Shown piece after piece: positions 22,661-30,577 of a stretch of DNA of 64,000 nucleotides (position 1 is the stretch's first letter; every line of letters begins with the position of its first letter). This DNA comes from Candidatus Zymogenaceae bacterium. GTDB taxonomy: Bacteria; Desulfobacterota; Zymogenia; Zymogenales; Zymogenaceae. Location: the NCBI GenBank assembly GCA_016931225.1, contig JAFGFE010000025.1, positions 1 to 64,000 of the forward strand, read 5' to 3'. The notes under the pieces are model-generated. The model saw only the letters and a program-made list of their open reading frames with translations, was not told the origin of the DNA and made no database searches. The position numbers and the translations under genes are program-made.

Positions 22661-22689
22661 TTGTAAGCGATACTGAAATTATATATAAT
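22661..22689 (+). promoter_or_regulatory. Promoter of the sufC-sufB unit
   Basis: TTGTAA at 22661-22666, a 17-bp spacer and a consensus TATAAT at 22684-22689, just after the copA stop; the leader to sufC is about 40 nt. Confidence 0.6.
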
Positions 22690-22734: not shown

Positions 22735-23493
22735 ATGCTCGATATAGAAGGATTGAAGGTGGAGGTGGAGGGAAAGGTTGTGCTCAAGAACATCAACCTT
22801 CACGTACCCGATGGGAAAACCCACGTGCTCTTCGGCCCGAATGGCTCGGGCAAGACATCACTCTTGATGACGATCATCGGCTATGAGGGATACAATGTCC
22901 TCGACGGCGAGATCTATTTCAAGGGGGAGCGTATTACGGACCTCTCAGTGGACGCCCGGGCGAAGATGGGCATCGGCATGTCCTTTCAGCGGCCTCCCTC
23001 CGTGGACGGCCTGAAGCTGGGGGATCTGCTGGGGCTTCTGGGGTGTGAGGGGGATGACCTCGCGCGTCTCGCGGAGAGCCTTCGATTCAAGGAGTTCCTG
23101 GATCGCGATCTGAACGTCGGCTTTTCCGGAGGGGAGATCAAGCGTTCGGAGCTTTTGCAGCTGATGGTACAGGGACCGGAACTCTTGTTATTCGACGAGC
23201 CGGAGTCCGGGGTGGACCTTGAGAGCATACACCTCATTGGGAACACCATCAACCAGTTGATTCATGGGTACGGCCTGGGGGGCAAGGAATACTGTTTGAA
23301 AAAAGATCGGGAGAACATTACACGCTCGGGGTTGATCATCACCCACACCGGACACATCCTGGATTACGTGAACGCCGACCAGGCCAGCGTCATCTATGAC
23401 GGCGTTATCGCCTGCCAGGGACACCCCCGGGAGCTGCTCCGAGGGATTTCACAACATGGATACGAGGAGTGCCTGAAATGTCTGAAACAGTAG
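22735..23493 (+). CDS. sufC: Fe-S cluster assembly ATPase SufC
   Basis: 252 residues. An ABC-type ATPase of the Suf family that works with SufB to build Fe-S clusters, not with a transporter. Walker A is GPNGSGKTS, the Q-loop lies in SFQRPPSVDGLKLG, the signature is FSGGEIKRSE, Walker B is ELLLFDEPESGVD and the switch His is in IITHTG. The ATG at 22735 follows AAAGGAGAG at good distance; a longer frame upstream has no such site. It overlaps sufB by 16 bp. No cysteine desulfurase (SufS) or scaffold (SufU/SufA) gene is next to it. Confidence 0.93.
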   Translation: MLDIEGLKVEVEGKVVLKNINLHVPDGKTHVLFGPNGSGKTSLLMTIIGYEGYNVLDGEIYFKGERITDLSVDARAKMGIGMSFQRPPSVDGLKLGDLLGLLGCEGDDLARLAESLRFKEFLDRDLNVGFSGGEIKRSELLQLMVQGPELLLFDEPESGVDLESIHLIGNTINQLIHGYGLGGKEYCLKKDRENITRSGLIITHTGHILDYVNADQASVIYDGVIACQGHPRELLRGISQHGYEECLKCLKQ

Positions 23494-24647
23494 ATAAATC
23501 CATCGTCGATGAATACGTACACGAGGGTGGGGAGCATGAGTATATTGATGACCTCGACTCCATCTCAGGGGCCGACCGGGAGCGCATGACCCTGGCGGGG
23601 ATCGACACCACAGGCGACGAGCGCTCGGGCACCTACATCCAGAAGGATCACAGCGTTGTGCACTGCAATGTGGCCCAGGAGGGTCTTGAGATCATGGACA
23701 TCCAAACAGCCCTCAAGACCCACGACTGGCTGGAGGAATATCTCTGGCGGATCGTCCCCAGAGACAAGGACGAATTTACCAAAAAAGTGGTGGAAAAGCC
23801 GCATTTAGGCTATTTTATCCGGGCGCTGCCTGGGGTGAAATCCCTTAGGCCGGTCCAGGCGTGCCTCTATCTTGCTACGAACAACATATCCCAAAATGTG
23901 CATAATATCATTATCGCGGAGGAGGGATCGGAGCTTCACATCATCACCGGCTGTTCCACAACACCGGGGCTGGCCAGCGGCCTGCATATCGGCGTCTCCG
24001 AGTTGTATGTAAAGAAGAACGCCTCCCTCAGCTTTACGATGATCCATAACTGGGGCGAGGGGATCACCGTCAGGCCACGCTCCGCCACCCGCATCGAGGA
24101 CGGCGGACGATTCGTCAACAACTACATCATCCTCAACCCGGTCGAGACCATCCAGATGTACCCGATGGCCTACCTTGAGGGGGATGATTCGGTGGCCCGC
24201 TTCAATTCTGTGCTGGTGGCCCCCAAGGGGGCCGAAATGGACATCGGCAGCGGCGTTGTGCTGACCGGTGCTCGGTCCCGGGCGGAGATCATCTCCCGGG
24301 CGATCACCACCGGCGGACGCATCACGGCCCGGGGTCGCCTGATCGGGAAGGTGCCGGGGGCCCGGGCGCACCTTGAGTGCAAGGGATTGATTCTGGGGGA
24401 CGGGTCGGTTATCGCCATCCCCGAGCTTGAGGGACACAGCGAGGGGCTGGAAATGTCCCACGAGGCGGCGGTGGGCCGCATCAATCAGGACGAGATACAG
24501 TACCTGATGGCCCGAGGACTCTCGGAGGAGGAAGCCATCAGCGTGATCGTTCGGGGCTTTCTGAAGGTGGACATGGAGGGCCTGCCGCCGGAACTCCAGA
24601 CGGAGATCGATAAGAACATCAGGCTGGGTGATTCCGGAGCCATGTAG
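23478..24647 (+). CDS. sufB: Fe-S cluster scaffold protein SufB/SufD family
   Basis: 389 residues, similar to the short archaeal and anaerobe SufB-type partners of SufC. The parallel beta-helix core typical of SufB/D is suggested by ISQNVHNIIIAEEGSEL, SATRIEDGGRFVNNYI and GVVLTGARSRAEIISRAI; the C-terminal SHEAAVGRINQDEIQYLM is the family helical end, with EEAISVIVRGFL after it. The ATG at 23478 (GAGGAG 8 bases before) lies inside the 3' end of sufC. This sufCB pair alone resembles the minimal Suf-type systems found in anaerobes and archaea. Sulfur may come from free sulfide or an unlinked desulfurase. Confidence 0.88.
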   Translation: MSETVDKSIVDEYVHEGGEHEYIDDLDSISGADRERMTLAGIDTTGDERSGTYIQKDHSVVHCNVAQEGLEIMDIQTALKTHDWLEEYLWRIVPRDKDEFTKKVVEKPHLGYFIRALPGVKSLRPVQACLYLATNNISQNVHNIIIAEEGSELHIITGCSTTPGLASGLHIGVSELYVKKNASLSFTMIHNWGEGITVRPRSATRIEDGGRFVNNYIILNPVETIQMYPMAYLEGDDSVARFNSVLVAPKGAEMDIGSGVVLTGARSRAEIISRAITTGGRITARGRLIGKVPGARAHLECKGLILGDGSVIAIPELEGHSEGLEMSHEAAVGRINQDEIQYLMARGLSEEEAISVIVRGFLKVDMEGLPPELQTEIDKNIRLGDSGAM

Positions 24648-24657
24648 GGGGACCGGT

Positions 24658-25632
24658 ATGCTTGTGTTGGGACTTCAGGGAAGCCCGCGGTTGGAGGGAA
24701 ACACGGCGCGTCTGTTGTCCGCCTTCATGGATGAGGCGAAGCGACTCGGGGGTGAGATCGAGACCCTCAACGTCGCCGAGATGGACATCCACCCCTGCCG
24801 GGAGTGCAACGCCTGTCGGAAAGACGGCAGATGTGTGATTGATGACGATATGCAGGCGGTCTATCCGCTGCTTCGCCGGGCGGACCTGGTGGCGGCGGCG
24901 AGCCCGATGTTCTTTTACGGCGTTACCGCCTCACTAAAGGCGCTCATCGATCGGTCCCAGGCCATGTGGAACAGCAGGTACGTACGGGGGCTCTCCGATC
25001 CGGGCCGGGGGATAAGACGGGGCGTCTTTCTCTCCGTGGGGGCCACCAAGGGTGATCGGCTCTTTGAAGGCGCGGGGTTGGTGTTCAAATACTTCTTCGA
25101 CGCCGTGGGTGCTCGTCATTTCGGCTCCCTCGGTTTCAGGGGGATCGAACACATCGGTGATATCGACGGCCACCCGACGGCTCTGAAGGACGCCGCCGAC
25201 CTCGCGCGAGGTGCGACGGCGGATCTCCTTGGGCGTCGGCGGGTGCTCTTTCTCTGCCGGGAAAACGCCTGTCGCAGCCAGATGGCGTGGGCGTTTGCCA
25301 GGAAGGACGCGGGGAGCATCATCGAGCCGATATCCGCCGGCGATACCCCTGCTGCGGCTGTCAACCCAATGATGATCGAGGTGATGGGTGAGGTGGGGAT
25401 AGACATGAGCTATCTGGAGCCGAGATCAATCGAGGTGGCCCTGGCCGCGGGGGACCCGGAGCTGATCGTCTCGATGGGATGCATGGACGCCTGTCCTGTG
25501 GTTCCCGGCGTGGAGGTGATCGACTGGGAAATAGACGATCCCGCCGGGAAAACACTCCCGTTCATGAAAAGGACCAGAGATGACATACGGAGAAAAGTTG
25601 CGGAGCTTGTTACGTCTATTGGGGGAGAGTGA
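24658..25632 (+). CDS. Fusion: iron-sulfur flavoprotein (NADPH-dependent FMN reductase) + arsenate reductase/LMW phosphatase
   Basis: 324 residues. The first 180 are a flavodoxin-like FMN reductase of the Isf type: GLQGSPRLEGNTARLL (FMN phosphate loop), a compact cysteine cluster C47-x2-C50-x2-C53-x5-C59 and SPMFFYGVTASLKALIDR. Residues about 195-324 are a low-molecular-weight phosphatase/ArsC fold: FLCRENACRSQMAWAFA with the C200-x5-R206 P-loop, then MGCMDACPVVPGVEVIDW and DDPAGK, where the C-x3-C pair could form the redox cysteines of thioredoxin-coupled arsenate reductases. A linked flavin and Fe-S centre could supply electrons to the arsenate reductase half. It starts 10 bp after sufB, behind AGGGGG, so it is likely in the sufCB operon. 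Confidence 0.85.
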   Translation: MLVLGLQGSPRLEGNTARLLSAFMDEAKRLGGEIETLNVAEMDIHPCRECNACRKDGRCVIDDDMQAVYPLLRRADLVAAASPMFFYGVTASLKALIDRSQAMWNSRYVRGLSDPGRGIRRGVFLSVGATKGDRLFEGAGLVFKYFFDAVGARHFGSLGFRGIEHIGDIDGHPTALKDAADLARGATADLLGRRRVLFLCRENACRSQMAWAFARKDAGSIIEPISAGDTPAAAVNPMMIEVMGEVGIDMSYLEPRSIEVALAAGDPELIVSMGCMDACPVVPGVEVIDWEIDDPAGKTLPFMKRTRDDIRRKVAELVTSIGGE

Positions 25633-25674
25633 ACGGAAAAAATATATATTACTCATGTACAATACAATGCAAGC

Positions 25675-25683
25675 TGGTATAAT
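25675..25683 (+). promoter_or_regulatory. Extended -10 promoter of the rubredoxin gene
   Basis: TGGTATAAT: consensus -10 (25678-25683) with the TGn extension. No good -35 hexamer is present, as is usual for extended -10 promoters. The surrounding sequence is AT-rich. Confidence 0.55.
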
Positions 25684-25730: not shown

Positions 25731-25892
25731 ATGCAAAAGTATGAATGTCAGGTGTGCGGCTATATTTATGATCCGGAAGCGGGAGATCCGGACAACGATG
25801 TGGCGCCGGGGACGGCATTCGAGGATATCCCGGAATACTGGGTGTGCCCGGTATGCGGCGCCCCGAAGGAGGACTTCGAGCCGGTATCCTGA
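25731..25892 (+). CDS. Rubredoxin
   Basis: 53 residues, the usual size. The iron is bound by [14 protein letters not shown] and [13 protein letters not shown], the two CxxCG knuckles. Rubredoxin is a one-electron carrier in the cytoplasm and a common donor to superoxide reductase and rubrerythrin, both encoded 3-4 kb downstream. The ATG has AGGAGG 10 bases before it. A glutaredoxin gene follows after 56 bp. Confidence 0.96.
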
Positions 25893-25948
25893 TGACCGGA
25901 GAAGCCGCTCCGATACATTTTTCACCCCATGCATGGAAGGATAACGCA

Positions 25949-26203
25949 ATGACGGAATCAAAGGTTGTCGTATATTCCACACCAACGTGTCCCTTCTGCA
26001 AAAAGGCGAAAGAGTTTCTTTCAAAAAAAGAAGTCGAGTTCATTGATCACGATGTCACCAAGGACAGAGACGCCCTTGAGGAGATGAGAAAACTCACCCA
26101 GGGGGGACTGAGCGTTCCGGTGCTGCATATCTGTGACGAGGTAATCATCGGCTTCGATCAGGCCCGCATTGAGAAGATCCTCGATGAATGCCTTACGTCG
26201 TGA
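25949..26203 (+). CDS. Glutaredoxin (NrdH/Grx family)
   Basis: 84 residues with a single thioredoxin-like fold. VVYSTPTCPFCKKAKEFL gives the CPFC dithiol, SVPVLHICDEVIIGFD the cis-Pro and glutathione-side loop. It is related in sequence to the glutaredoxin half of the next gene, from which it could have been copied. GGAAGG lies before the ATG. It probably receives electrons from the fused thioredoxin reductase that follows, as NrdH proteins do. Confidence 0.88.
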   Translation: MTESKVVVYSTPTCPFCKKAKEFLSKKEVEFIDHDVTKDRDALEEMRKLTQGGLSVPVLHICDEVIIGFDQARIEKILDECLTS

Positions 26204-26264
26204 GAATACCGATCCATCGATGGATTCGGGTGGTGTTTCGGCCTTTTTTCTGGTGTGAATACCT

Positions 26265-27467
26265 ATGCCGACACTGAAAATTTATACGATCGAGGGATGT
26301 CCGTTCTGCATCAAGGCCAAGGCGTTCTTGGTCGAAAAGGGAATCGAATTTGAGGAGATTCCCGCCAGTCCCGACTCGGAAGACTGGCAGCGGATGAAAA
26401 AGAAAACCCGAAGCGGTTCGGTCCCTCAGATATGCATCGACGGAGAGCCGCTGGGCGGCTACAGCGACCTGGTGTATCTGGAGGCCACCGGTATCCTGTG
26501 GGAGAGGCTGGGGCGGACCGATAAAGTGACGGAGAGCGCCGCAAGGGAATCCGGCATTTACGATCTGATCGTCATCGGCGGAGGGCCCGCGGGGCTCTCC
26601 GCCGGTATTTATGCCGCGAGAAAGCTGATGAAGACGCTCCTGATCGCAAAGGACATCGGCGGCCAGGTGGTATGGACCTATGACATCGACAATTACCTCG
26701 GTTTTAGCGGGGTGGATACCGCGGACTTGATATCCAAGTTCCATGAGCACGTGGAAAAGTATAACGTCGAAAAAAGGGAGGGGATTGAGGTTATCTCCGT
26801 GGAGCTCTCGGGACGGATCAAGAAGGTTACCACCTCCGACAACAAAATCTCTCTCGCAAAAACCGTCATCATCGCCACCGGAAAGAGTCCCCGTCCCCTT
26901 GGGGTCCCGGGGGAAAAGGAATTTACCGGCCGGGGCGTGGCATACTGCTCCACCTGTGACGCGCCGTTATACGTGGACCTGACCGCAGCGGTGGTGGGCG
27001 GAGGAAACTCGGCGCTGGAGGCGGTGATAGATCTGGAGAAGGTGGCGAATCACGTGCACCTGATATCCCTCACACCGCTGACCGGCGATCCCATCCTGAC
27101 GGAAAAGGTGGAGGGGATGGAGAAGGTGGATATCTATACCGAGTACAACACAAAAAAGATTATCGGGGATAAATCGGTCACCGGCATCGAAATCGAATCC
27201 ATAACAAGCGGCGAGATAAAAACGCTCGATACCGACGGCGTATTTATCGAGATCGGCCTGTTGCCCAACTCGGACCTCGTCATCGACACCCTCACCACGA
27301 ATCGTATCGGCGAGATCACCGTGGACAGCGAGTGCAGGACCGGCATGTCCGGGGTATTCGCCGCAGGCGATGTGACGAACGTCCCCTTCAAACAGGTCAT
27401 CGTTGCGGCGGGCGAGGGCGCAAAGGCGGCTCTCTCCGCGTATAATTATCTGATAAACCAGAGATAG
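26265..27467 (+). CDS. trxB: Fusion: glutaredoxin + thioredoxin reductase
   Basis: 400 residues. The first 80 form a glutaredoxin domain with C12-P-F-C15 and SVPQICIDGEPLGG. From about residue 98 a complete low-molecular-weight thioredoxin reductase follows: VIGGGPAGLSAGIYAAR (FAD), the redox pair C228-S-T-C231 in AYCSTCDAPLY, VVGGGNSALEAV (NADPH) and GVFAAGDVT (FAD end). The dithiol is CSTC followed by DAP, where canonical TrxB has CATCDG, so the active-site context is slightly altered. The attached glutaredoxin is likely the direct electron acceptor. It may also serve the free glutaredoxin upstream. The cytoplasmic location is inferred from the lack of a signal peptide. Confidence 0.93.
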   Translation: MPTLKIYTIEGCPFCIKAKAFLVEKGIEFEEIPASPDSEDWQRMKKKTRSGSVPQICIDGEPLGGYSDLVYLEATGILWERLGRTDKVTESAARESGIYDLIVIGGGPAGLSAGIYAARKLMKTLLIAKDIGGQVVWTYDIDNYLGFSGVDTADLISKFHEHVEKYNVEKREGIEVISVELSGRIKKVTTSDNKISLAKTVIIATGKSPRPLGVPGEKEFTGRGVAYCSTCDAPLYVDLTAAVVGGGNSALEAVIDLEKVANHVHLISLTPLTGDPILTEKVEGMEKVDIYTEYNTKKIIGDKSVTGIEIESITSGEIKTLDTDGVFIEIGLLPNSDLVIDTLTTNRIGEITVDSECRTGMSGVFAAGDVTNVPFKQVIVAAGEGAKAALSAYNYLINQR

Positions 27468-27647
27468 GGTGAACGGCTTTCCTGACGGGGGACAAGATAG
27501 CGGGCGCCGAGATGTCGCCCATGCGAACGCTCTCATGCTCTTTTCCTTTTATATTTTCTCCATAAATCCGCAGTTCCATTCTGATTCTTCTTTCCTCATT
27601 TCTCACCGCTTTGTTTTACATACGTTCCCTCCGGAAAGCAGAGATAC

Positions 27648-28433
27648 ATGAAGCATCGCGGCCCGCTCATACCGGCCCGGTTCATCGCCCGGGATAACAG
27701 ATTACTCGCCCGGGTGATGCTCGATGCAGCAAAAGAGAGTGAAGAAAATCCGGGAAGTATCGATACTCAAAGACCGTATCCGTCTGATGATCCGATTGTG
27801 TCGGTGCACGTGCCGAACTCCGGAAGACTCACGGAAATTCTGACCTCCGGACGCCGCGTGTACCTGAGGGGAGAGGCCGATCCCAAGCGAAAGACCGCCT
27901 ATACCCTTGTGCTCGCCCGGATGGAGACGACGCTGGTTTCCATCGAGTCGACGGCGGCGAACGGGATGGCAAGGGAATGCTTCACCGCCGGACGATTCGA
28001 TCCGTTTCGGGGGTACAACGTAATAGAGGCGGAGAGACGATTCGGGAAAAGCAGGTTCGATTTCTTCCTGTCAAAATCGGGACACGGGACCGGCGGTCAC
28101 CCCGAGGTTTCTTTTGGCCTGTTCGTGGAGGTGAAGGGGGTGACGCTGGTTACGGGTGGGCAGGCGATGTTTCCCGATGCGCCGACGATAAGGGGAACGA
28201 AACACCTCCTGGAGCTGATCGAAGCGGTACGGGAGGGACACCGGGCGGCCGTGCTGTTCGTCGCCCAGCGGGGGGACGTCGAGCAATTTACGCCCAACGA
28301 CCGGATGGACCCGGCCTTCGGAGAGGCGCTCAGGACGGCGGGGGAGAGGGGGGTGGAAATCTATGCCGTGTCGTCGAATGTAACAATCGAGGGGATGGAG
28401 ATTACGGGAATGGTTCCGGTGCTGCTCGATTGA
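27648..28433 (+). CDS. sfsA: SfsA family DNA/RNA nuclease-like protein
   Basis: 261 residues. SfsA signatures: VHVPNSGRLTEIL near residue 50, RRVYLRGEADPKRKTAYTL, FDPFRGYNVIEAERRFGKSRFDF, and FVEVKGVTLV-TGGQAMFPDAPTIRGTKHL. The E-x-K in VEVKGV belongs to a PD-(D/E)xK-like nuclease core. The E. coli protein was first named for sugar fermentation stimulation; its true role is not settled. It lies between the redox genes but has its own 180-bp upstream gap, and a strong promoter for the next operon starts 57 bp behind it. Confidence 0.93.
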   Translation: MKHRGPLIPARFIARDNRLLARVMLDAAKESEENPGSIDTQRPYPSDDPIVSVHVPNSGRLTEILTSGRRVYLRGEADPKRKTAYTLVLARMETTLVSIESTAANGMARECFTAGRFDPFRGYNVIEAERRFGKSRFDFFLSKSGHGTGGHPEVSFGLFVEVKGVTLVTGGQAMFPDAPTIRGTKHLLELIEAVREGHRAAVLFVAQRGDVEQFTPNDRMDPAFGEALRTAGERGVEIYAVSSNVTIEGMEITGMVPVLLD

Positions 28434-28489
28434 GCGGACGAGGGTGTCTATTTTCTGTACGTACCGTGATGGATATCGCACGTAATCTA

Positions 28490-28518
28490 TTGACAAAGTC
28501 AGATGTCGGCACTATACT
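28490..28518 (+). promoter_or_regulatory. Strong sigma70-type promoter of the oxidative-stress operon
   Basis: TTGACA at 28490-28495, a 17-bp spacer and TATACT at 28513-28518. The predicted transcription start falls at about 28525, at the edge of the Fur-type box. Confidence 0.8.
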
Positions 28519-28525
28519 AAGAAAA

Positions 28526-28540
28526 TGATAATTATTATCA
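28526..28540 (+). promoter_or_regulatory. Fur-type 7-1-7 operator
   Basis: TGATAAT-T-ATTATCA is a perfect inverted repeat and equals the 7-1-7 Fur box consensus; PerR boxes have TTATAAT arms instead. It lies at the predicted +1, so iron-loaded Fur would block transcription. No fur or perR gene is in the window. Confidence 0.75.
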
Positions 28541-28596
28541 ATAGTGATACATTATACGAATTACATCGTTTCATCACATATAAAAAGGAGCATGGT

Positions 28597-29007
28597 ATGA
28601 AATCGCATTGTCATAGAAGAAGTTTTTTGGGATTTCTCACCGCCGTGGTTGCGGCCGCCGCCGCCCTGGGGCCTTTCCGCCTGATCGCACGGGCGGCGGA
28701 GAAATGGATATCTGTGGGGAAGGTGGACGATTTCATCGTTGGCGGGGCGGTGAGAATCGAGGACGAGAAGCTGTATATTTTCAGAAGCGAAGAGGGTTTT
28801 TCCGTCCTGTCCGGAAAGTGCACTCACATGGGATGCTTCGTGGATCGGATCGCCGACGGCACGTTCGAGTGTCCCTGTCACAACGCGGCCTATGACGAAA
28901 CGGGTAGGGTGACAAAGGGCCCGGCCAAGAAGGACCTGGTATGGCGTCCCGTCAGGGAGGAGAACGGTGAGCTGTTGGTGGATGTGAAGGGCGAAATCGA
29001 AATGTAA
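28597..29007 (+). CDS. Tat-exported Rieske [2Fe-2S] protein
   Basis: 136 residues. The N-terminus HRRSFLGFLTAVVAAAAALG is a twin-arginine signal (RR followed by hydrophobic stretch), cut or kept as an anchor near residue 33. The rest is a single Rieske domain: C75-T-H77 and C92-P-C-H95 bind the cluster, and C80 with C94 would form the disulfide of high-potential Rieske proteins. It is first in the operon and has no cytochrome b or oxygenase partner nearby. It may carry electrons outside the membrane, perhaps to the exported peroxiredoxin. The ATG at 28597 has AAAAAGGAG upstream. Confidence 0.88.
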   Translation: MKSHCHRRSFLGFLTAVVAAAAALGPFRLIARAAEKWISVGKVDDFIVGGAVRIEDEKLYIFRSEEGFSVLSGKCTHMGCFVDRIADGTFECPCHNAAYDETGRVTKGPAKKDLVWRPVREENGELLVDVKGEIEM

Positions 29008-29054
29008 AATAAATATTAAAAACATAGGTACAACACAATAACGGGAGAAAAAAC

Positions 29055-29432
29055 ATGACAAAGAGATTGCAGATTTATAAATGCGAGGTGTGCGGCAATA
29101 TCGTCGAGGTGCTGCACCAGGGAAAGGGCGAGCTCGTCTGCTGCGGAGAGCCCATGGTCCTTTTCGAGGAGAACACGGTGGACGCGGCGAAGGAAAAGCA
29201 CGTTCCCGTCAAGGAATCGAAGGCGGGCGGTGTAAAGGTGAAGGTGGGGGACGTGGCGCATCCAATGGAGGAAAAACACTACATCGAGTGGATCGAGGTA
29301 ATCGATGAAAGCGGTGTGGCCTATCGGAAGTTCCTAAAGCCGGGCGAGGAACCCCAGGCGGTTTTCGACGGGCTTGACGCGCAGGTGACCGCCCGGGAGT
29401 ATTGCAATCTGCACGGTCTCTGGAAAGGATAG
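29055..29432 (+). CDS. dfx: Desulfoferrodoxin (2Fe superoxide reductase)
   Basis: 125 residues, the standard length of class I SOR. The N-terminal desulforedoxin-like iron site uses C10-x2-C13 (YKCEVCGN) and C29-C30 (VCCGEPM). The catalytic Fe(His4-Cys) centre is built from H49 (KHVPV), H69 and H75 ([12 protein letters not shown]) and C116/H119 (YCNLHGLW). It reduces superoxide to peroxide without making oxygen, with rubredoxin as donor. It lies 47 bp after the Rieske gene and 5 bp before ferritin. Confidence 0.96.
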
Positions 29433-29437
29433 GAGCC

Positions 29438-29959
29438 ATGCTGAACAAGAATGTGGAAAAGGCGATTAACGACCAGATTGTGGCGGAGCTCTATTCCGCC
29501 TATATGTATCTCTCCATGTCCGCCTATTTCGAATCCGAGAACCTGGATGGATTCGGCAGGTGGATGCAGGCCCAGGCCCTGGAGGAGCTCTATCATGCCA
29601 TGAAGTTTTACAACTACGTGAACGAGCGGGGCGGCCGGGTCATCCTCGGGGCGGTGGAACAACCGGAAAGCAGTTGGGATTCCCCCATCGCGGTTTTTCA
29701 GGCGACCTATGATCACGAGGTAAAGGTCACCGGGCTGATTCACAACCTCGTGGACATCGCCAGAAAAGAGAACGACAAGGCGACCGAATCCTTCCTGACC
29801 TGGTACGTGGACGAGCAGGTGGAGGAGGAAGACGCCGCCGATCGGATCCTCGGCAAGCTCAAGATGATCAAAGACGCCCCCGGCGCCCTCTTCATGATGA
29901 ACAATGAGCTGGGCCAGCGAACTCCCACATGGCCCGCAGCTGCAGGGGAGGAAGCATAA
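29438..29959 (+). CDS. ftnA: Non-heme bacterial ferritin
   Basis: 173 residues in a four-helix bundle. The ferroxidase ligands are seen in AELYSAYMYLSMSAYFE (Glu), ALEELYHAMKFYNYVNERGG (ExxH) and DEQVEEEDAA. It oxidises and stores iron in a 24-mer shell, keeping Fe(II) from reacting with the peroxide made by superoxide reductase. The start lies 5 bp behind the SOR gene with AGGAG in the junction. Fur-type control of a ferritin through the same operator as SOR is a point of interest. Confidence 0.95.
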   Translation: MLNKNVEKAINDQIVAELYSAYMYLSMSAYFESENLDGFGRWMQAQALEELYHAMKFYNYVNERGGRVILGAVEQPESSWDSPIAVFQATYDHEVKVTGLIHNLVDIARKENDKATESFLTWYVDEQVEEEDAADRILGKLKMIKDAPGALFMMNNELGQRTPTWPAAAGEEA

Positions 29960-29991
29960 GCGTTGAGATATCGTTGAAATAACATAAGTAT

Positions 29992-30022
29992 CGCCGGACG
30001 GGGGGATTCCCCCCCCCCGGCG
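29992..30022. repeat. GC hairpin with G6/C10 runs between ftnA and rubrerythrin
   Basis: CGCCGG and CCGGCG arms enclose six G (30000-30005) and ten C (30009-30018). No T-run follows. It could slow transcription or stabilise the mRNA ends; the ten-C run is prone to slippage in sequencing and replication. Confidence 0.55.
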
Positions 30023-30043
30023 ACGTGAAAGGAGTGTGATTCG

Positions 30044-30577
30044 ATGGCGAAAAAAGCCGAGAGGGCGCTCACCATGCTCAACAAGGCTCTGGACATGGAA
30101 CGAAAGGGCATGGCGTTTTATGAAGACGCCATTAAAACCTGTTCGAACCAAGTGGGAAAAGAGATATTCCAGATGCTCAAGGAGGAAGAGCGGGTCCACA
30201 TGGATCGGATCATGAAGATCTATGCACATCTCGAACAGAATGAGGACTGGACGTCGGAGTGGAAGGTGATCAAGCCGGATCACGGGGATCTGGAAGAGTT
30301 CTTTACGGAACTTGCGAAGCGTCACGGAACGGACATTACGGCTGACACGTCCGATATCGAAGCACTGGATGTCGGACTTGATTTTGAACAAAACGCGGTG
30401 GCGTTCTACCGGGAGCATCTGTCGGACGCGGTCGAGACGCTGGAGCGGGAGTTCATCGAGGAGATGGTCGCCGAGGAGCGGTCACATTATAAAATCCTTG
30501 GAGACATGAAGCTGTATCTCACGGATCCCGAGATCTGGTTTCGGGAACAAGAACACGGCGGGCTGGACGGTGCCTGA
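30044..30577 (+). CDS. Rubrerythrin-family diiron protein (no rubredoxin domain)
   Basis: 177 residues. Two ferritin-like ExxH helices are visible: KEEERVHMDRI and AEERSHYKIL, with Glu ligands in DMERKGMAFYED and FEQNAVAFYREH, the internal repeat typical of this fold. The C-terminal rubredoxin domain of classical rubrerythrin is absent; the protein ends soon after LYLTDPEIWF. It probably reduces hydrogen peroxide with electrons from rubredoxin or another carrier. GAAAGGAG lies before the ATG. It is the fourth gene of the Fur-type operon. Confidence 0.88.
   Translation: MAKKAERALTMLNKALDMERKGMAFYEDAIKTCSNQVGKEIFQMLKEEERVHMDRIMKIYAHLEQNEDWTSEWKVIKPDHGDLEEFFTELAKRHGTDITADTSDIEALDVGLDFEQNAVAFYREHLSDAVETLEREFIEEMVAEERSHYKILGDMKLYLTDPEIWFREQEHGGLDGA

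Follow-up and report, generated by a model that had tools for sequence, protein, structure and literature searches.

An iron-sulfur flavoprotein fused to a thioredoxin-type ArsC domain: a candidate arsenate reductase with a built-in redox module in an oxygen-defence gene neighbourhood

Introduction

In the established reaction cycle of the arsenate reductase ArsC, three cysteines act in turn (PMC6193951). The enzymes of S. aureus pI258 and C. glutamicum (Cg_ArsC1') have in common a C-x5-R loop with the nucleophile, two further redox cysteines, a DP loop and the LMW-PTP fold. ArsC is also found in one chain with a functional partner, e.g. in the Acr3-ArsC protein of M. tuberculosis, in AqpS-ArsC of Salinispora and in ArsR-ArsC (PMC6205960), where the partner is an exporter, a channel and a regulator, respectively. 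Iron-sulfur flavoproteins (ISFs) are proteins of anaerobes containing FMN and a [4Fe-4S] cluster, with a compact C-x2-C-x2-C-x5-7-C motif (PMC3164229). The prototype of this family is Isf of Methanosarcina thermophila. Furthermore, self-sufficient oxygen reductases in the form of flavodiiron-rubredoxin-reductase fusions are reported from Trichomonas (PMC9364112) and Clostridioides (PMC6033852).

Here we describe a gene in which an ISF and an ArsC domain are joined. It is located in a stretch of 64,000 nucleotides (in the following "the window") of a Candidatus Zymogenaceae bacterium (contig JAFGFE010000025.1; genome G000 in our set). The fusion is real, widespread in the phylum and built from two known families, and it is apparently undescribed; no publication on an ISF-ArsC fusion was found in the open literature library searched.

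Results

Domain architecture

The fusion gene encodes an ISF domain, a short linker and a thioredoxin-type ArsC domain (Table 1). The open reading frame listing places its start at a GTG codon at position 24628, 10 codons further upstream, but the aligned homologues support the ATG at 24658, which is preceded by the ribosome-site-like sequence GGGGGA. An FMN reductase with a compact four-cysteine cluster followed by a CX5R loop had been read from the sequence in a preliminary description; the motifs lie where it had placed them, and the Pfam scan agrees with matches to FMN_red (PF03358, residues 1-109, E 3e-19, 69.6 bits at a cut-off of 24) and LMWPc (PF01451, residues 196-317, E 1.6e-12, 48.3 bits at a cut-off of 23.2). 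The protein contains eight cysteines in total (C47, C50, C53, C59, C200, C205, C275 and C279).

Table 1. Features of the fusion gene and its surroundings in the window
Feature	Coordinates	Strand	Evidence
Promoter-like site before sufC	22661..22689	+	Consensus scan, 10/12 matches
sufC-like Fe-S assembly ATPase	22735..23493	+	TIGR01978 175.6 bits, below 212.8 cut-off
sufB-like protein, ends 10 nt before fusion	23469..24647	+	PF01458 E 2.9e-39; TIGR01980 172.4 bits, below cut-off
ISF-ArsC fusion gene, 324 aa	24658..25632	+	ORF; Pfam FMN_red + LMWPc; 34 other full-length homologues
ISF / NADPH-dependent FMN reductase-like domain, residues 1-185	24658..25212	+	PF03358, PF02525; stand-alone ISF relatives match residues 1-185
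GSPRxxGNT flavin-phosphate loop, residues 8-16 (putative)	24679..24705	+	G8, P10 35/35; S9, R11, G14 34/35
Compact cluster motif C47-x2-C50-x2-C53-x5-C59	24796..24834	+	C47, C53, C59 35/35; C50 29/35
ArsC / LMWPc domain, residues 194-320	25237..25617	+	PF01451; PDB sequence matches 3t38, 2l17, 2cd7; Foldseek 2cd7
C200-x5-R206 oxyanion/phosphate loop, nucleophile C200	25255..25275	+	Aligns with C10 of S. aureus ArsC; C200 29/35
C275-x3-C279 redox pair	25480..25494	+	Aligns with redox pair of 3t38; C275 30/35, C279 29/35
Catalytic D294-P295	25537..25542	+	D294 31/35
Promoter-like site between fusion and rubredoxin	25656..25683	+	Consensus scan, TG-TATAAT, 10/12
Rubredoxin	25731..25892	+	PF00301 E 4.9e-25; conserved downstream neighbour
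Glutaredoxin	25949..26203	+	PF00462
Glutaredoxin-thioredoxin reductase fusion	26265..27467	+	PF00462 + PF07992; TIGR01292/TIGR03140
Desulfoferrodoxin (superoxide reductase)	29055..29432	+	TIGR00320 203 bits, above cut-off

The N-terminal half shares with M. thermophila Isf the flavodoxin-like FMN_red fold and the C-x2-C-x2-C-x5-C spacing of the cluster motif, which lies within the range of C-x2-C-x2-C-x4-7-C by which ISF membership was judged. Judging from the family, it would bind FMN, probably by the GSPRxxGNT loop, as well as one [4Fe-4S] cluster, and would oxidise ferredoxin or NAD(P)H. Stand-alone ISF relatives comprise about 185-235 amino acids, whereas the window protein continues into the C-terminal ArsC domain.

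This second half exhibits the C-x5-R loop with its nucleophilic cysteine (C200-RENAC-R206), the DP loop and, in the 82-89 region of ArsC, the two further redox cysteines. The C-x3-C motif formed by the latter had been called an extra feature. It is, however, the ordinary redox pair of a thioredoxin-dependent ArsC, since it aligns to that of Cg_ArsC1' (3t38, 'MGCGDVCP'), which has the same spacing; the idea of something unusual was therefore dropped. The model superimposes on the arsenate reductase 2cd7 (Foldseek TM 0.86 by target length, rmsd 1.9), and sequence and Foldseek searches group the C-terminal half with ArsC of S. aureus pI258 and with Cg_ArsC1'. In the AlphaFold prediction the two domains, as well as the way they pack, are confident (pLDDT 94.3, pTM 0.92). 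In contrast to known thioredoxin-dependent enzymes the domain sits behind an ISF domain, is located away from ars genes and scores below the NCBIfam equivalog cut-offs (NF010053 71.7 against 215, TIGR02691 65.8 against 174 and TIGR02689 67.6 against 157.6 bits).

The LMWPc family assignment together with the C-x5-R and DP motifs would also support the chemistry of an LMW-PTP-kind protein phosphatase with incidental redox cysteines. The aspartate is nevertheless part of a D294-P-A-G sequence and not of DPY as in the separate tyrosine phosphatases of genomes G041, G076, G108, G163 and G188, the C275/C279 pair is kept together with C200, and the proteins of matching structure are arsenate reductases. 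On account of the DPAG sequence and the redox pair we discarded an LMW tyrosine phosphatase, and we consider a phosphatase function of the C-terminal half highly improbable.

Distribution and origin

A search of 395 genomes of the phylum with a profile of seven fusion members yielded full-length fusions in 35, distributed over 15 family codes. Among the relatives is a Candidatus Zymogenaceae genome (L037). A tree built from 144 ISF domains unites all 35, together with three members consisting of the ISF domain without any ArsC domain (L192-L194), in one clade with an SH-aLRT value of 100. Within this phylum, the simplest reading of the tree is that the two domains were fused once and that ArsC was later lost once. 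The number of genomes and the single clade exclude an assembly error, by which the preliminary description would have explained an absence of the fusion from sister genomes. A scan of the whole collection with exact peptides of the window protein, a probe too specific for conclusions on other phyla, returned the full fusion elsewhere only in the Zymogenaceae relative. In the search for plasmid-borne copies no record covered 80% of the query.

Conservation and decay of the ArsC half

C200, C275 and C279 occur all together in 29 of the 35 fusions. The full catalytic set is intact in 29 as well, the oxyanion-binding loop and D294 being kept along with the cysteines and decaying with them. In the remaining six (L182, L187, L188, L189, L190 and L191) the ArsC active site is lost, for which about four changes on the tree are needed, and the ISF half is conserved. 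The main decayed group exhibits an identity of 40% in the ArsC half and 62% in the ISF half, compared to 58% and 59% in its intact sisters, so that the ArsC/ISF ratio drops from 0.99 to 0.64 after loss of the active site. Since ArsC diverges like the ISF half while intact and faster once decayed, it is constrained as an enzyme. The conservation of the ISF half where ArsC decays indicates in turn that the former has a use independent of ArsC.

Alternatively, arsenate might not be the substrate of the ArsC-like half at all, whose three cysteines would instead serve as a thiol-disulfide switch or as a sensor of peroxide or electrophiles gating the ISF half upon exposure to O2. For the decayed protein L191 the ArsC fold is still predicted, as expected for such a role, in an alignment dominated by intact members. 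However, the joint retention in 29 of 35 proteins and the joint decay of oxyanion loop, D294 and cysteines are what would be expected of an enzyme, and we regard a switch or sensor as unlikely.

One sub-clade (L177, L180, L187 and L189-L194) has Y, F or L in place of C50 and keeps the other three cysteines of the cluster motif. The cluster may there be ligated by three cysteines or have another ligand. A strict coupling of C50 to the ArsC cysteines found no support, since L177 and L180 lack C50 but have an intact ArsC, and L182 and L188 retain it with a dead ArsC.

Gene neighbourhood

The direct linkage to sufCB that had been reported before is evident in the window, where both genes precede the fusion on the same strand. 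With promoter-like sites before sufC and before rubredoxin, the three genes may form one transcript. The sufC-sufB pair (22735-24647) has no adjoining sufD, sufS or sufU, does not reach the equivalog cut-offs of SufB and SufC and matches SmsB, too, which suggests a minimal SUF-like system. Downstream, a dense run of O2/ROS-related genes (25731-30577) encodes rubredoxin, glutaredoxin, a Rieske protein, desulfoferrodoxin, ferritin and rubrerythrin-like proteins. In one of its genes (26265-27467), next to the separate glutaredoxin gene, a glutaredoxin is joined to a thioredoxin reductase/AhpF-like domain. No RNA structure above chance was detected downstream of the fusion.

Among all 35 fusions, at least 15 have a rubredoxin gene within 600 bp downstream and at least 15 a flavodiiron protein (assigned by its H-x-E-x-D-H motif and a length of ~395 aa) within 2.5 kb; sufB/sufC are located upstream in at least 10, and genes for superoxide reductase, rubrerythrin, ferritin or Rieske proteins within 5 kb in at least 18, these counts being lower bounds as some flanks end at contig ends. 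By single-query BLAST, which a divergent ArsR could escape, neither ArsR nor Acr3 nor ArsC was found within 5 kb of any of the 35 fusions. In family code f24 (L120, L185, L186) the neighbours of the fusion are not O2-defence genes but TRAP-transporter-like genes and one for a CoA-binding-like protein. The switch or sensor considered above would fit a neighbourhood of O2-defence and Fe-S assembly genes that never includes ars genes.

This setting also bears on the possibility that the protein has two functions and no internal electron transfer. The ISF half would then be an electron carrier of O2/ROS defence, delivering to rubredoxin and the flavodiiron protein or straight to O2 or H2O2, and the ArsC half an arsenate reductase carried along and recycled by thioredoxin. 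The rubredoxin and flavodiiron neighbours, found with 15 of 35 fusions each, include those of the ArsC-dead L187, L189, L190 and L191, and the ISF half outlasts both the decay of ArsC and its entire loss in L192-L194. Thioredoxin is moreover encoded in all fusion genomes, and in G272, G367 and G230 on the same contig, about 1.1-3 kb from the fusion. On the other hand, the maintenance of the fusion across 15 families suggests coupling, the packing of the two domains is predicted confidently, and ISF and arsC were paired independently in Bacteroidales. We regard two uncoupled functions as possible, if somewhat doubtful.

Fused and separate ArsC in acr3-carrying genomes

Acr3 is not enriched in fusion genomes (22 of 35, compared to 42 of 79 relatives without the fusion, p 0.41). 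Among the acr3 genomes, a separate three-cysteine ArsC was present in 4 of 17 with an intact fusion, but in 32 of 42 without fusion (Fisher p 3e-4; including G037, whose Acr3-ArsC fusion was missed by the motif script and added by hand) and in 4 of 5 with a decayed fusion (p 0.04), where the Fisher values are a guide only and overstate the support, as genomes sharing ancestry are not independent samples. In genomes with acr3, the intact fusion thus seems to take over from a separate ArsC. In G050, arsR-acr3 has no adjoining arsC, and the fusion is the sole LMWPc protein of the genome. E. coli-type ArsC, searched for in the fusion genomes only, was absent from all 35. The Acr3-ArsC protein of G037 (L121:1530-2978, one open frame) is a further ArsC fusion within the same phylum.

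In Bacteroidales, a distant ISF gene is part of the clusters arsR-arsC-ISF-acr3-osmC (L104:3756-6769) and arsR-arsC-ISF-osmC (L099:7660-9566), in which arsR, acr3 and osmC were named by reading the sequences and not by a family scan; these loci are an independent pairing of ISF and ArsC. Because of this pairing and of the replacement pattern, arsenate reduction by the intact fusion is likely. The mutual substitution of fused and separate ArsC also speaks against a mere switch or sensor, for which the lack of Acr3 above the cut-off in 13 of the 35 fusion genomes (G000 and 12 others) could be put forward. In G000 neither Acr3 nor ArsB was found.

Discussion

The reading we favour, albeit tentatively and at somewhat less than even confidence, is that of an arsenate reductase carrying its own reductase module, in which the ISF half probably re-reduces the disulfide and, independently of ArsC, also serves in O2/ROS defence. 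Cofactors, arsenate as substrate, the donor and the internal electron path are inferred here. C200 would attack arsenate and C275 resolve the intermediate, leaving a C275-C279 disulfide. Electrons from a low-potential donor (NAD(P)H, ferredoxin or reduced rubredoxin) would enter at the N-terminal domain, which probably passes them to this disulfide. A separate role of the ISF half with O2 or ROS would explain both the siting with sufBC, rubredoxin, the flavodiiron protein and superoxide reductase and the retention of this half where ArsC decays.

This reading is supported by the 29 of 35 intact catalytic sets, by best sequence and structure matches to true arsenate reductases, by the replacement pattern in acr3 genomes including the case of G050, by the Bacteroidales pairing, by the divergence rates of the ArsC half and by the confident domain packing. 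Against it stand the lack of ars genes beside the fusion, the lack of Acr3 and ArsB in G000 and of Acr3 above the cut-off in 13 of 35 fusion genomes, and the low scores of the ArsC half (65-72 bits against NCBIfam cut-offs of 157-215). A direct transfer from flavin or cluster to ArsC is plausible, but since thioredoxin is present in 35 of 35 genomes it would not be required. For the same reason an absence of thioredoxin, as support for the proposal that the protein replaces it, is ruled out.

From the preliminary description the arsenate reductase reading is retained in so far as the intact ArsC half seems to replace a separate ArsC. Its proposed route of NADPH electrons through flavin and cluster to the arsenate site, in place of thioredoxin, is a plausible hypothesis; its purely arsenic framing misses the O2-defence setting. 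An exclusively arsenic role is disfavoured because of the missing ars operon, the O2-defence and Fe-S neighbours, the lack of Acr3 and ArsB in G000 and the six decayed ArsC sites.

Like the Acr3-ArsC, AqpS-ArsC and ArsR-ArsC proteins, the window protein joins ArsC to a functional partner, but here this is a candidate redox donor. The Trichomonas and Clostridioides fusions are reported likewise to combine a redox enzyme of an anaerobe with its own electron supply in a rubredoxin/flavodiiron context, the terminal acceptor being diiron there and ArsC in the window protein.

The clade provides a graded decay series, from intact proteins over those with a lost active site and a retained domain to those without the domain, all of which are expressible for comparison. 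With the fusion it can be tested directly if the ArsC disulfide is recycled by a flavin/Fe-S module without thioredoxin. Although we would not count on it, the protein might be the first ArsC-type arsenate reductase to need neither thioredoxin nor glutaredoxin, with electrons running within the chain from the low-potential donor via FMN and [4Fe-4S] to the disulfide. Many acr3-carrying genomes of the phylum would be scored as having no cytoplasmic arsenate reductase, and the activity is probably contained in the fusion. If the proposed path is true, arsenate detoxification in these anaerobes would be tied to the rubredoxin/flavodiiron pool of oxygen defence.
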